From: Nannobrachium achirus
Taxonomy: Eukaryota > Chordata > Actinopteri > Myctophiformes > Myctophidae
DNA length: 64,000 nt
Direction of reading: 5' to 3'
Assembly (NCBI GenBank): GCA_963921795.1
Contig: OY997659.1
Location: 19,001,508 to 19,065,507 of the forward strand
Made by a program: the position numbers and the translations under genes. The notes beneath the pieces are model-generated. The model was not told the origin of the DNA. It did not search any database and saw only the letters and a program-made list of their open reading frames with translations. Shown piece by piece: positions 53,763 through 62,700 of the stretch. Each line of letters opens with the position of its first letter. Position 1 is the stretch's first letter.

Positions 53763-56700
53763 ATGTCGGACTCCAAGCAGCAGAATAATAAAGACGCGGA
53801 CCACCACCAGCAGACGCCAAACTCGCTACTTTGTAACGAGGACTCCGACCACATCAAAGCGGACCACAGCAGGGCGGTGTGCGCGGTGTGTAAACGGCTG
53901 TACCGAGACCCCAAGATCCTGTCGTGTCTGCACACGTTCTGTTCCGACTGCATCCTGCAGCTGGAGCCCTTCTCTGTGTCCTCCCGAACCAGCGGTACTG
54001 GTACCAACACCAACCGGTAGGGCTGTTGACGCTGTCACCATCACTTATCACATTTTACTAACCATTGGATCTATCAATAGACTAAGCCCATACTCACCTC
54101 CCCCTTTCCACTGTAAATATCTGCTTCTTCTGATTATTTTATTTACCTTGTATTTTTTCCCCCTGCTTTTATAATTGATCTTATCCTCCTATGCAAAGTA
54201 CTGTGTTATATCCGTCTGTTTTAAGTTTCAATAATGAGATAGGCCTACATAAAGTGGTTCCTGGGTAAATAAGCCGTAAAGCTTACTAAGATCTCCTTTT
54301 AGTTGACCTTGTACCAGTGATTTCATTTGTACTGTCATGAAACTGTACTTTTTCCTATTGCAAACTTCTACTAAATTATTCAATAAATTATTCAATCAAT
54401 CAATGTATGGGAATCCACAGATTCCCTGGAATCCACTTTGAGAAACACTGATCTATCTCATGTATTTTGATTGATTTTTACATTTTGACATGTTTTATAT
54501 TTACATTCTATAAAATACATCTATATCTATATATGTGATGGCCTTGATCCAAGGCTAAACTTTTTACATGACGATAAATTGTCACACAACTGAATTGCAA
54601 TTAACGAATTAATTGGAACATTGTTATGAATAAAAATCTAATTTCTGTTTTGCTTTGAAGTTGCACAGGGCAGATATGACAAAGGAAATAACCTAAATAT
54701 ACAAAGAAATTAATGACACGATACCATTATCGTGAGTGTTCACGATAAACGATAATATTGCTTATCGTCCCATCCCTAGGCCTGCTACCAACCGGACCTC
54801 GTCATCTTCGAGGAGCAGCAGCAACAGCAGCGAGGACCCGTCACCCCCCTCGTCCCATCGGGAGGACAAGAAGAAGACTTCCTTCTCCTCCTCGGTCACC
54901 ACCGTCCTCTGTCCGCAGTGTGACACTGAGGTGGACATTCCTCCGTCGGGGGTGGGGGGCCTGAGCACGGACCACCTGGCCCTGGACGCGGTGTTCGCCG
55001 AGACCCTGCTGGCGGACGGCCCGCTGGTGTGCGACCTGTGCAGCGACGGAGATGCCGAGAAGCGCTGCGAGGTCTGCTCCGTCAACCTGTGCGAGTTCTG
55101 CAGTCAAGCGCACAGGTGGGTCCCGAGAAGCGACCAGAGATGTGGATATAGGCAGGGAGCCACAGGCCCAAAATTTGAGAGGATGACATACTTTTTATTT
55201 TTGTTTTTTCTATTTATTCGGTCAATACACACACAGAATGAGAGGCCTGCTCTGCTGGAAACATCGTGAAAAAAGTTATGGCCATTTGTATATTATTCAC
55301 TGTCCCTTTGACTTCACTATACAGGAAAATAATACATAAAAGAAATCTGGGCCATAATGTCAAATCAACTGGCTTCATCGGGAATCGCTTGCTTGCGTTT
55401 TGCCAAGAGATAGTACAGTGGTTAAGTGGCTAAGAGATAGTACAGTTGTTCTCAACCTGTGGGTCGGGATCTCCATGGGGGGCCCCAAATTATTTTGAGG
55501 GGTCCCCTGATGATTAACTTAATGTGCAATATTGTTTTCTCACTGAACAGTAAACAGACCAACACACAGTATAAGTGTATACAGGGTATCTCCTCATTTC
55601 TAAAGTGCCAATGTAAGGACTTTTTAGTAGCTCTAGTCAAACATCAGTCAAATTGTCAAATATTATAGGCAGAAATTGTGAATACAACGCCTCGCAAAAC
55701 GTGAGGCGTTGTGAGCATGTAGTTTGGCTATTTTCACAATGGTATATAGATCGAGTCAAACTAAATGTAATGCCAACTCCTAGCCTGCTTCCAGACAATA
55801 GACCCCGCCCACTCTCAGAGTGGACTCTTTCTCTGGTCTGGAGCTGAGTACATGAATCGGGATTTATTTTCGGCCCGTCCAATGAGCGCGGGGGGTGGGG
55901 GTGGGTCTAACGAATATCCAGTTGAAACGATTCAAACGAAGTTCACACACACAGGCAGGCTGAGGAAGGTACACACACACACACACGCGCGTGCTGATTT
56001 CACCAAGCTGTCAATGTTGATGACATGTTTCTGGTCGCAGTTCTGTGGAAGCAGTCACTGGCACAGACAGAGACACACACACAATCACACACACACACCG
56101 CGACCGTGCGTCGCGTCCACGGTGCGTCTCGATCACCGTGCGTCGTGATCACTCGCTCAGAAAGGGCACAGTTTCAGACTACTGCGTGAGCTGAGTCTGA
56201 GATCAGGCTAGCCACCTCCTACAATTCTAAATGCTTGTGTAGGGTGGTGGGTCCCCAGTTAAAATATGATTATTTTGGGGGTTCGCGGCCTGAAAAGGTT
56301 GAGAACCACTGGTCTAGTAGTTAACCGTTGCATCCCTACAACTGTTGCATGTTGTGTCATCAGGAGGCAGAAGCGGACAGCCTCCCACACGGTCCAGTGT
56401 CTCCAGGAGCTGAAGCGCCAGGGCGGGCGCGTGTCGCGGCCCGTCCTCTGCTCCCTCCACCCGGGCCAGGAGCTGCGTCTGTTCTGTGAGCCGTGCGACC
56501 TGCCCGTCTGCATCGAGTGTTCCGCCACCTTCCACCGCGACCCCAGCCAGCACCGCTGCTGCCCCGCCAGCGATGTCATTGATCGGCACGGCAACCGCAT
56601 CCGCCAGCTGGTCTCTGGGTGTCTGCGTCCCCGCCTGGAGCGCCTGGAGGAGGCGCTGAGGAAGGTGAGGGTTCTGAGTTATAAGCCTATAACCCAGAGG

Positions 56701-59700
56701 TTATGACAGTAGAAACTGTGTCCGTCCTTCTGCAGTCTGGCGTCTAGACCAGTGGTTCTCAAACGTTCTTAAAATGTCAGGGTCCATATGGTATGTATAC
56801 TGTCAGAGTTGCATACTTGTGAGGGTCAAATTTAGACCTCCCAAAAGGAACCCAGTGAGTCCCTGGACCCCACTGTGAGGACCACTGGTCTAGACCAGAA
56901 AATGGTACCCAGTGCCTCCCTATTTAGCACTCTGCATCGTGGGTTGGATTGTGGGTAAATCCCTGTGGCATACCAGCGTCCTGTCCAGGAGGTGTACTTG
57001 TACATCAAGCTGCCTTACACTATGGAAACAGGAGATAGGCTCCTCTCCTGACCTATGGGCCACATGGTGACCTCTCCTGACCTATGGGCCACATGGTGAC
57101 CTCTCCTGTACCTATGGGCCACATGGCTCAGAACTGTCGCTTCCCCTGTGACCGTTGACCTAACAGGTGTAGTGGCAGTGGCTCAGTGACATTGAGATCA
57201 GACCAGCGCTTTTTTTTTTTTTTTTTTAACAATATGTTTATTTTTGTTTTTCATTTTTTAAAGAGACATACAAAACAACATATACAGCACAATAATATGC
57301 TACATACAGACGAAACAAGCAAAAAAGAAAATACTACAACATACAGAAAAAAAAAAACCCAAAAACCTGACACTAACACGACACATAAGAGTATTAAATA
57401 ATTATTACATACCCTTGACATACTGGATAAAGTTCCCCCATATTTTCTCAAATAGCTCTTGTTTGTTTTTGAGAGTGTATGTGATTCTTTCTAATGGAAG
57501 GCACAAAGACAGTTCCTTAAACCACTGAGCGATGCGAGGTTTCCCTGTCTTTTTCCATGAAAGGGCTTTGACTGAAATGTGTAAGATGTGTATTGACAAG
57601 ATATGTCTGTTGTGCTTTCAAAACACTAATATATACTTTTTACACTTCCAGTACCATTTACCTTAGGGCTCCACATATTATTCATTATTTCCCCCAGATC
57701 ATCCAATTAAAAATGAAAAAAACAAAAAAAAAAAAAACAGTGAAAATAAATAAAGCGTGCTCTCCTCTCTGTCCTGTGTCCCCATAAGTCAAAACAAACA
57801 CCTCTTATAATGTCCCTCTCACGCTCACACACGAGGGCTGTTACTCTAATGGCAATATTCTATATGTGAACCGGAACTAGCACATTACACTGGAAACTGA
57901 AAGGGACAGCTGTCCCCTTACGACCACAATAGCCGCAGCCTGAGAAAGGCCCTACACAAGTGGAGGGACACCAGTTTTTTATGAAATGTTTATAAACCCA
58001 TTACCCTGACGCAGATTCTACGATCTTCTAAATCAGTCGTTCTCAAATCTTTTCGTGCCAAGGACCCTCAATTTGAAAACATTTTGTGCCAGGGACCCCC
58101 AGAGAGTTTTTAAGTTAAAATAGCAGACACGCTGCAAGCTTGCACAGTATATCTGCTATTTTTGAGAACCACTGTTCTAAATCCTAAGAGTTTTCTGCGT
58201 TTTCTTCTCTCTCCTCCCTACTGAAGGTGGAGACTTCCCAGGAGAGCTTGCACACGCGGGTGGAGGCGGTGGCGGTGGAGGTGCGAGCGTTTGCCCGAGG
58301 CTACGCCAACGCTGTGGAGACACACTGTCTGTCTCTGCTCCGAAGGCTGGACGAGGTCCGAGTCCAGCGCAGGTGCGGGACCACAGAAAATACCCTGTAT
58401 TTAAACTAGGGCTGGGCGATTAATCGATTTTTAATCGAAATCTGATTTTTTGGTTTGGAAGATTTCTTTTTTTAAACGAGAAAATTGTCAAATCCATTTA
58501 GACTTTAAGGGTAATTCTGGTACGGATCTCGCTCATTAGAGCCCTGCACGGGGCAAAAAGTCTACAGCCCGGTCCTCTTACTAAAACACGTCAAGTTTCT
58601 GCAATATAATATTTCCAATAGAAAAAATGTAATAAAAACACATTTGTTTGCATTTCTTTTGCAGACAAATCCTCCTAAAACACGACAAGGTTCTGCAATA
58701 TAATATTTCCAATAGAAAAAAATGTAATAAAAACACATTTGTTTGCATTTCTTTAATGAAAACAACATTTTTGAAATAATTTATTCTTTTTACAAAAAAA
58801 ATCTACTTTTCTGAGCAATAAATCTGGATTTTAATTTTGGGCCAAATCGAACAGTACTAATTTAAACCATTAACTCATTCTATGAGTTTGAGTGTCGTGG
58901 TTGGATCTGGCTAATTGTGTCCCATTCGCCCGCCGTCAGGAACCAGCTGCACCTGCAGAAGGCCCAGCTGCAGCAGGCGCTGGCGGACGTCCGCGGTGGC
59001 GTGGAGTTCGCCGAGAGGCTGCTCACCTCGGGCTCCGAGGCGGAGATCCTCAGCGCCAAGGGTGTGACCCTCAGGTAAGGGTGGGCGATATGGAGAAATA
59101 AAAGATCTATATATTTTTCCAAGATGTATCACGATACACAATCTTATCACGATTCTTTATCATGTTGGTTTTTATGGTTATTTTTCAAGTTACATAACAG
59201 TACAACCACCTACAATGTAACAAAAACTAAAAGAAAAAGGAGTAACAGACCATTTAGACCAGTGGTCTTCAATGTTGGGTACAGGGACTCTCTGGGTTCC
59301 TTTTGGGAGGTCTAAATTGACCCTTACAAGTATGTAACTCTGACAGTATACAAATGAAACCAAATGGACCCTTACAGGTCCATTTGGTTTCATTTGTATA
59401 CTGTCATAGTTAAGGGGAGACCTTGACATTTTAAAGTTTGAGGACTACTGATTTAGACCAAAATGTAGGAACAGGATCTTTTTTTGAATAAGGCTCCCTC
59501 ATTGTATCACGCTAAATACGATATCTCTGAAAAGGAATATCGTGGATACAGGGTTAAGGTATGGTGGAGACATGGTATCGTCTCAAAGACATTTATCACC
59601 ATATCACCCACCCCTACCCTCAGGCGACTGGGCGGCCTGGCGGAGATGGGCTACGACCCCCACCCTGCCGCCGTGGCCCCCGACGATGGCGGCAGCATCT

Positions 59701-62700
59701 GCTTCTTGCCCCTGGAGGGCGCCGGCGAGGTGGGGGGCTTCCCAGTGGTGGGGGCCATCCACTCCAAGACGCTGGACCTCAGCAGGTGCACCATCGAAGG
59801 GGAAGGTGAGAGAGAGACTAACCTCGCATCACCAGTCTTTCCACCTCGGAGGAAAGCCTGGTATTCGTTTACAACGGGCCGTTTGATCCGGTCTAGGCGT
59901 GGCCTAAACTGGAAACAGGGAGAACAAGAGGCGTCGCTTTGTTTTGATCTTTCCGGTCAAAGTGTAGTTCTTTGAGGACTACAACTTGACGTAGGCTGTT
60001 TCCGCTCAAGACCGGATCAAACCCTGAAATTGGAAGCGATCCCAGGCAAGAGAGAGACAGAGAGGTGTTGTTGGTTGGTGGTGGGCACACGCATACAGTG
60101 ATTTATCAGTTACAACGGTGCTTCTCAAAGTGGGGTTCATAGTAGCACAATCATTTTAACCACCTCATACATTACTACTGTACGTTGGCTATTCAAAAGA
60201 TCTAAGTGTACAAGCTCACAGCGCAGCACGAAGTGAGCTTGCACACGTGCTATTTTGGGGATTTTTGGTACATCTGCTATAACTGGAGATCCCTGGCGCT
60301 AAACCTTTTCAGATGGGGGGTCTGCGGCCAACTTCATATTAATTTGGTGGACCTTAGTTGACACAAACAAGTTTGGGAACCTTCCACAGAGTTACGGGAC
60401 CCTGTGGGTTTACTGGGTCATTCTTTCACATACGCTGTTGTTTAGTCAGACAAGCTGTTCATTGTTGTTTCAGCAACTGTCTGGATGAGTAGGTGCGCTC
60501 ACTGACACGCACAGACACTGAGCAGTTAGGGAATATTGACATTCCTGTGGTAGGAATGTTGAGGTGACTTACAGCAGTGGTTCACAAAGTTATTTTGGGT
60601 GGTCCCCAGATGATTAACTTATTGTTTTCTTCACTCAACAGTAAACAAACCAACATAGAGAGTATATGCACATTTCTAAAGTGACAATTTAAGACTTTTT
60701 AATACCTCTAAAATGACAAATTAAACATTGCCAAATTGTCAGATATTAGAGGCAGAATTTGTGAAAATAGCCAACCCCTTGCTCCAACCCCTATGATGGA
60801 CAACACACGTGCGTCCCAGGTCCCACGTCCCAGGTCCCAGATAAATGACTATGTGCTTCCTTATATGTGGTTTTGTCTGAATGATGAACTACCGCTTTTT
60901 AATGTCATGTCTCTACACGATCCTGTGTGTGTGTGTCCTTTCTGCCTGTCTGCACATCTGTCCTTCTATTCTGCTTCTTTTTTCTGTGTGTGAGTGTGCA
61001 CGTTTGTATGCATATATGTGCTGTCGTGCACAGGCAAAAATTAATCATTGTTTAAATTGAATTTTGGTTCATGCTGAAACTAAATTACAGGAATTTCCTA
61101 CTACTGACTGTGGGGGGCAGCAATACGCCTTGCAGCGTTGGAGGAAGACTCTTTCCAAAGCTAGATCACAGTATAGTGAAAACGGATAAAAAAATAGACG
61201 AAAATAATCGGCTTGTGTTGTGAGGCATTGTGTGCTTGTAGATCGTCTATTCTGTTATTTGACAATTTGGTAGTTTGTTGGTTACTTTTGATTCAGTAAT
61301 GAATCTCTCTCTCTGTGTGTGTGCGTGCGTGCGTGCGTGCGTGTGTCCAGGTCTCCTGCAGGGCAGGGAGGGGCAGCAGGGAGCCTTCAGCCTGGTGTGC
61401 AGGGACGTGCAGGGGGAGCAGATGGGACGTGGAGGGGACCATGTCCTGGTCAGCATCATCCACAAGGACAAGAAGGACTGGTGACTGCCTGCCTGGCGGC
61501 AACACGCACGCCGTTTACATATCAGTTGTTTTAAACCCATTTAGGCCTAGAATTATTTAATGCTTTAACTATTGAAAAATAGCAGATATACACGCTCACA
61601 GCACGGCACCGAGTGCAGCCCTGTGAGCTTGTAGATCTGCTATTTTTTTAAATCGTGTTTTTTTTTCTTCTTTTGCAAGTCTTTGAATATATCTTTTTAA
61701 AAGTGATAAAATATTTATGGTCCCTGGAACAACACATTTTGAGATGGGGGTCCGCGGCCAAATACATGTCATTTTAGTGGTCCTTGACATGAAAAAGTTT
61801 GAGAACCACTGATTTTAGAAGAAAGATTTAGAAGACATTTATAGAATCGTGTCAAAAATATTCAAAGACGGATAACGGACAGATTTTTCAAGGCGCAAGT
61901 TGGCAGGCAACTCGACAGCGTGCAGTCTAGTTGAAAGTTGCAGCCCTGATCCACAGCTACAGAAAACCACACGTTATCTGACTCCATGTTGCTTGTGTTT
62001 GTGTTCAGTACGGTGGAAGCAGCCGTGGTGGATAACGGCGATGGATCCTATGCTGTCTCCTACACTCCTGTGGAGCCAGGTCTCTACTCTGTCTGGGTGT
62101 GTGTCAAGGCCCAGCATGTCAAGGTAGACTTGGTTTAATAACTGTCTTTCTACTTTTTCAGTCTAGATTTAATTTAATTTGTTTTTATCTCAGTTTGTTT
62201 GTGGGACAGTAAAACAATACTTTAGCTTCATAGTTATAGCCCTATTGGGTATGGTTTTAACCACTTATACTTATTTATTTAGGGTTCTATGCCAAAAATA
62301 GACAATCTCCAAGCTCACACGCTACATACTGTAGTGTGCTTTTAGATCGGCTATTTTTGCTAAATGTTCACACCGAAATAAAATAAAACGCTAGGGTTCA
62401 AATCGTCTCATTTCTCCCCTAGGTATAAACAAACTAAAAATCACACCCGTGTGAACTGAGCGGTGGTTTACCCACCGCTCAAAAATTGGACACTGTACCA
62501 ACAGCTCTGATAATTTTCAAAACAATCATTTACAAATATATTCAAAGTTAGAATGAATTGTTATGGGTGGAAACCTCATATGTCCAAAATGGTTGCTTTT
62601 CAAAACTTTTTACAGATCTGCTACTTACGAGCTTACAGATCTGCTACTTTTGATGCTTTTGTGTGACACTGCTGGTTGCGATCGTAGATGTCATCAATAT

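Follow-up and report, generated by a model that had tools for sequence, protein, structure and literature searches.

The window analysed here, a stretch of 64 kb of DNA, contains a stop-free model of trim45 that comprises 9 exons separated by 8 introns and encodes 575 residues. Exon 5 (58940..59074, + strand), delimited by the frame and splice model together with an alignment of fish TRIM45 proteins, ends within codon 391 in phase 2, and exon 6 follows at 59624..59805 on the same strand. The 549-bp phase 2 intron between them (intron 5, 59075..59623, +) consists of the last G of a first copy of an 8-bp target-site duplication (TSD), a hAT-like MITE of 541 bp, and seven bases from the start of a second TSD copy. 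The two TSD copies, both reading CCCTCAGG, lie at 59068..59075 and 59617..59624 (+); the final G of the first is base 1 of the intron, and in the second CCCTCAG ends the intron while the remaining G opens exon 6. The MITE itself (59076..59616, +) starts with the 5' terminal inverted repeat (TIR) TAAGGGTGGGCGATATGG (59076..59093, +), from which the TAAGG that follows the TSD G in the donor is taken, and finishes with the 3' TIR CCATATCACCCACCCCTA (59599..59616, +), which gives the pyrimidine tract of the acceptor. The inverted ends extend over 23 nt and are 87% complementary. A nested MITE of 191 bp (59260..59450, +), flanked by its own TSD ATTTAGAC at 59252-59259 and 59451-59458, lies inside the element and is also found in other copies of the outer family.

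The original prediction, that this intron equals one element with inverted repeats together with a single copy of a perfect 8-bp duplication, is confirmed and correct to the base. The same anatomy bears out the origin proposed for the splice sites, with the donor CAG|GTAAGG built from the last TSD base and the TAAGG terminus, and the acceptor CAG|G being the second TSD copy. The spliced exon 5-exon 6 sequence is identical to the sequence left after removal of the element and one TSD copy, and the reading frame across the seam is open (...GVTLRRLGG...), in agreement with the claim that splicing restores the codons present before the insertion; retention of the intron yields AGG TAA, an immediate stop, as had also been foreseen. 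When the window was scanned for 8-bp direct repeats adjoining inverted ends matched at at least 13/16, six places were retrieved, intron 5 among them, and none in each of 20 dinucleotide shuffles. Exons 5 and 6 have no second match anywhere in this genome. Taken alone, the TSD is weaker evidence than its length implies, because its CAGG part also fits the splice consensus; the reading as a MITE insertion is settled by the abutting TIRs, by the family copies that have 8-bp TSDs of their own, and by the uninterrupted exon found elsewhere.

The peptide across the trim45 seam is contiguous in 117/120 fish TRIM45 proteins among the matches listed (120 of 253) and gapped in 3; the closest of those listed is 72% identical, and in the tree the protein of this genome sits on a long branch with Polymixia nearest. 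When the exon 5+6 peptide was used as query, the matches were 58 short ORFs of other origin, fish by similarity and some possibly close to one another, in which exons 5 and 6 are fused and contiguous at the seam without exception (58/58). All of them extend beyond the end of exon 6 into non-conserved residues, at the site of intron 6 here. Residues ahead of exon 5 are present in 37, non-conserved in 35 of these and exon-4 sequence in two (P0244 and P0260), and the other 21 begin within exon 5. The non-conserved residues beyond the exon borders lead us to read these ORFs as genomic exons. As judged from these comparisons, trim45 intron 5 is a gained intron, exons 5 and 6 forming one uninterrupted exon elsewhere. 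An intron at the identical codon in other vertebrates lacking the MITE, the observation that would speak against such a gain, was not found in any of the 58 ORFs.

That the codon already had an ancient intron, which the MITE then filled or replaced, has practically no likelihood, since this reading is already contradicted by these 58 ORFs and by a TSD that covers both splice junctions, which insertion into an existing intron would not produce. It would draw on the intron richness of trim45, with its 8 introns in the window model, and on the UniRef model P0106 (Stegastes), in which a gap begins directly after residue 391, one codon from intron 5. This model is one of 7/120 listed proteins, all UniRef models, that are without 25-30 residues within TRIM45 392-425, with differing borders. 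The seven, a point against a MITE-made intron, are read as odd models (artefacts) or alternative splicing in this part of the protein.

Other parts of trim45 also carry features of note. Intron 1 (54017-54779) runs from G+TAGGGCTG to CCATCCCTA+G, and its 3' end is the TIR of a related element, TAGGGATGGGACGAT, which supplies the acceptor. It is flanked by ACCAACCGG at 54009-54017 and 54787-54795, the latter 8 bp past the right end, and its arms pair weakly (P 0.004-0.009); intron 1 is possibly a second, older intron made by a MITE. Within intron 4, a whole TAGGGCTGGGCGATTAATCG-type element (58407-58859) with the 8-bp TSD ATTTAAAC lies away from the intron borders. In the protein, residues 73-123, encoded by the end of exon 1 and the start of exon 2, form a Ser/Thr/Asn-rich linker between RING and B-box that is about 20-30 residues longer than in 35 other fish proteins compared.

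The exact end TAAGGGTGGGCGATATGG of the MITE occurs 52 times in the 1.66-Gb genome and 0 times in a reversed control. All 52 places were read and a recognisable TSD was found at 32; counted by locus, a full copy with an 8-bp TSD is present at 30/49 (22 perfect, 8 with one mismatch), the other 19 being without such. The 8-bp TSD characteristic of hAT MITEs is accompanied by the other expected features, TIRs on a short element, the 32 copies measuring 344-660 bp apart from one of 1,824 bp. We take the family to be of hAT type from the TSD length and from end sequences known in fish elements, and a hAT transposase would presumably have moved the element. In the TSD logo of the 32 copies, five coding ones included, position 6 is preferentially A, position 7 A or G and position 8 C or G, and the mirror image is likewise preferred.

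The relaxed end TARGGGTGGGYGATATGG of the family has 3,761 exact occurrences in the genome, and AGG precedes 204 of them (5.4%). Multiplying the observed logo frequencies for A, G and G gives about 5.5%, and since the two values are close, target preference is enough to account for the AGG ends; AGG enrichment as a sign of selection was rejected. For the 204 ends, 70 loci were read, which are the first part of the list and thus non-random, two of them being already in the 52-place set; a copy with a TSD was found at 47 of the 70 (35 + 12). L067 and L068 look like a single copy viewed from both ends. ORFs of at least 100 aa lie in sense at 13 and in antisense at 10 of 35 AGG copies, against 7 and 4 of 29 background copies, so that this blunt count reveals no clear strand bias. 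Most sampled copies of the family are outside recognised coding sequence.

The original prediction had also described the nested MITE with its own TSD, which stands, and had taken it as proof that the trim45 copy is not new, which does not: 15 of 16 other full family copies match the nested element wholly or partly, 5 of them across its entire 191 bp. The dating of the trim45 copy by the nested MITE was rejected, as the nested element belongs to the outer family. The copies compared indicate that the outer family is one that spread as a composite with the nested element, which is part of the family's source element. Since the nested element is common to the family, the age of a copy has to be judged by how far it has diverged from the family consensus. 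This divergence amounts to a K2P of 0.063 for the trim45 copy, part of which may predate the insertion into trim45, and to 0.03-0.09 for 15 other aligned copies (L017 was left out of the alignment).

Both splice sites of intron 5 are strong. The donor CAG|GTAAGG scores 11.48 bits, the highest of the 8 trim45 introns, when computed with textbook splice-site frequencies, and the acceptor tract contains 14/17 pyrimidines. Coding constraint is retained on both sides of the insertion, with 62/63 highly conserved residues (at least 95% conserved) kept downstream and 132/135 upstream, and the reading frame stays open through the window's four downstream exons. Were the MITE an unspliced exonic insertion, it would break trim45, and the assembly would hold a null or low-frequency allele; the retained element does give a stop at once. 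In a simulation with an assumed indel rate, the chance of acquiring neither a stop nor a frameshift downstream was 34% at 1.4% divergence, 10% at 3%, 2.1% at 5% and 0.5% at 7%. For a young insertion (1.4%), open downstream exons therefore carry little weight, while over 6.3% divergence, some of it possibly older than the insertion, a broken trim45 would be unlikely to keep them open. With almost all conserved downstream residues kept and two strong splice sites against it, such a broken allele is very improbable. We infer that trim45 RNA is spliced at 59074/59624, and efficiently.

Eight further copies of the family break conserved coding exons on the sense strand and have in-frame splice sites, in snx19, bicd, ncoa, ttc39, otopetrin, an lrrc4-family gene, a GPR39-like gene and a butyrophilin-like gene. 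The check suggested with the original prediction, for other introns made of the same MITE family, was run in this genome and gave a positive answer, with these eight loci beyond trim45 as predicted introns. Gene names except TRIM45 and SNX19 are based on domain matches, PDB chains or recall, and the splice sites were scored by script, those of the lrrc4-family and GPR39-like genes being judged by junction reading only. The AGG set provided the sense-strand coding seams with conserved-protein support in ttc39, otopetrin, ncoa, the lrrc4-family gene and the butyrophilin-like gene. The seam is spanned by the PXA domain in snx19 and by the BicD domain in bicd; further conserved domains that run over seams of family copies are NCOA_u2, C2-set_3, Iml2/TPR_39 and 7tm_1, and solved otopetrin and LRRC4B chains also run across seams. 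At the lrrc4-family seam, 90/90 residues align to LRRC4B without a gap, and the TSD CTTCAAGG on both sides leads to AAG|G by junction reading. The TSD of the butyrophilin-like gene has two mismatches.

In snx19 the splice sites are arranged differently. The TSD on the coding strand is GGTGAGTT, with the donor G|GTGAGT in TSD copy 1; the element end and the G behind it form the acceptor (CCCTTAG|G), no bases being left over. This acceptor junction was found at 2 places in an exact genome search, snx19 and a receptor gene that we take to be GPR39-like, in each case on the sense strand of a conserved exon. In the latter, Pfam 7tm_1 extends across the seam, the TSD has one mismatch, and the 738-bp element has a decayed left end. 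Among the matches listed for SNX19, the closest of which reaches 71%, the seam is ungapped in 105/120 proteins; 13 vary in length in the adjoining variable stretch, and P0188 and P0221 are missing part or all of the variable stretch by the seam. Several matches are ORFs that read beyond the exon end, for instance P0147 and P0176, whose contigs measure 23.5 and 33.9 kb; these sequences therefore lack the intron. The intron position is new relative to other fish both in snx19, by these read-through ORFs, and in trim45, by the exon ORFs.

Five of the 32 copies with a TSD in the unselected sample, which was not chosen by target site, are coding: trim45, snx19 exon 1, bicd, a BARD1-like ORF and a 540-aa acidic ORF with the 1,824-bp element, the last two called coding by ORF alone. 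All five are in-frame spliceable, compared with 8/54 strand placements of the 27 other copies (Fisher p = 2.6e-4), under a post hoc rule set after the cases had been seen; the comparison concerns spliceability and makes no claim of enrichment in coding sequence.

Apart from the eight loci, L053, L059, L085, L100 and L115 are candidates by ORF only, the last three from the AGG set; in L053, the BARD1-like case, the PDB match (E 0.003) covers only a part downstream of the seam. The coding copies L059, L085, L094 and L108 measure 1.0-1.8 kb, above most copies in the unselected sample. Several loci were set aside. L096 (keratin) is an exception among the coding copies, as its reading frame is not continued past the seam. 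L072 holds a hAT transposase-like ORF, homology begins at the seam in L127 (Wnt), the FAM65/RIPOR match of L119 stops about three residues beyond the seam, the weak fucosyltransferase match of L029 stops before it, and L104 and L113 are long ORFs without a family match. L064, L086, L097, L124 and L127 touch apparent natural exon ends; in L064, L086 and L124 the TSD overlaps apparent natural splice sites, where the insertion may have supplanted a donor or acceptor or created a second copy of it.

If chance were the explanation, an ordinary MITE family would have produced a one-off in trim45, and the other coding copies would be pseudogenes or misread flanks. The preponderance of sampled copies away from recognised coding sequence, the little sense bias in plain ORF counts at AGG copies, the off-frame L096, the transposase ORF of L072 and the five copies at exon ends are all compatible with this. 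It does not sit well, however, with conserved domains and the otopetrin and LRRC4B chains crossing seams, with an snx19 seam ungapped in most listed proteins and read through by some ORFs, or with in-frame spliceability in every coding copy of the unselected sample, and we consider it improbable. We are highly confident that MITE insertion made trim45 intron 5 and that the family did so repeatedly, in two modes and a mixed form; the transposon-made intron of the original prediction is supported.

A non-autonomous hAT-like MITE would have entered what was then one undivided trim45 exon at CCCTCAGG, in codons 389-391, and duplicated 8 bases. The AGG at the end of the duplication and the TAAGG at the start of the element together create a strong donor at the left junction, CAG|GTAAGG; on the right, the C-rich terminus and the second CCCTCAG|G behind it would act as the acceptor. 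Splicing would then remove the element with one TSD copy and restore the original codons exactly. In other genes the same family would have repeated this process. In a first mode, presumed for trim45 and others, the TSD ends in AGG; in a second, presumed for snx19 and the GPR39-like gene, the TSD begins with GGTGAG, the donor would lie in TSD copy 1 and the acceptor would be the right terminus plus G (CCCYTAG|G). A mixed form, in bicd and the butyrophilin-like gene, would leave 6 extra bases. AG|G is the end of a proto-splice site. Moreover, both element ends read TARGG, which lets the element serve in either orientation; turned round, the trim45 copy would have the donor CAG|GTAGGG. Given the target preference, introns may be likely to arise even if the element is under no selection. 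The family is probably an introner family of vertebrate hAT MITEs with perhaps dozens of new introns, whose transposase prefers SYTNNARS, including the AG|G end, which would make the element intron-ready in either orientation.

Maize Ds, a hAT element with an 8-bp TSD, is removed as an intron in a mutant allele. The predicted introns described here are likewise hAT-type elements with 8-bp TSDs, whereas the Ds case is a mutant allele in a plant. The large survey of introners found 27,563 introner-derived introns in 175/3,325 genomes and set its threshold at four or more similar introns in unrelated genes; among animals and land plants it found introners in only two groups, both animals, and it saw no such pattern in vertebrates (Gozashti et al. 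2022, PMC9860276). Here, trim45 and eight further loci have similar predicted introns in unrelated genes, and in trim45 and further loci the intron is coextensive with the mobile element, its splice sites at or next to the ends. As in that survey's account, copies of a DNA transposon, many with TSDs and TIRs, appear as new introns in unrelated genes, predicted ones in our case, with splice sites carried by the element or drawn from the insertion site, and some copies add bases (12 bp in Aureococcus, 6 bp here in bicd) (PMC9860276). Unlike those introners, the family has a vertebrate host, its introns arise where the TSD fits, and most sampled copies are outside recognised coding sequence. On these sequence comparisons, the family appears to behave as introners do, in a vertebrate host, a group for which that survey reported no such pattern (PMC9860276).

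Another study counted 342 intron gains in human genes, three of them assigned to intronization, and its authors state that their methods were not designed for gains by other mechanisms, transposable elements included (PMC12124190). The trim45 case resembles these as a recent intron gain in vertebrate genes and differs from intronization in that the intron is inserted DNA and not former exon. Among the open-licence papers listed, judged by title or the opening of the abstract, no report of a vertebrate introner family was found; the literature search found no paper on TRIM45 gene structure.

Intron gain in vertebrates has been little observed, and a transposon-made route is hardly documented in them. 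In trim45, the TSD and the two transposon ends account for the donor and the acceptor base for base, and the uninterrupted exon is seen elsewhere. Furthermore, one family gives replicates with two splice schemes. Together, these features point to target-site preference as one factor that may determine whether a transposon can turn into an introner.
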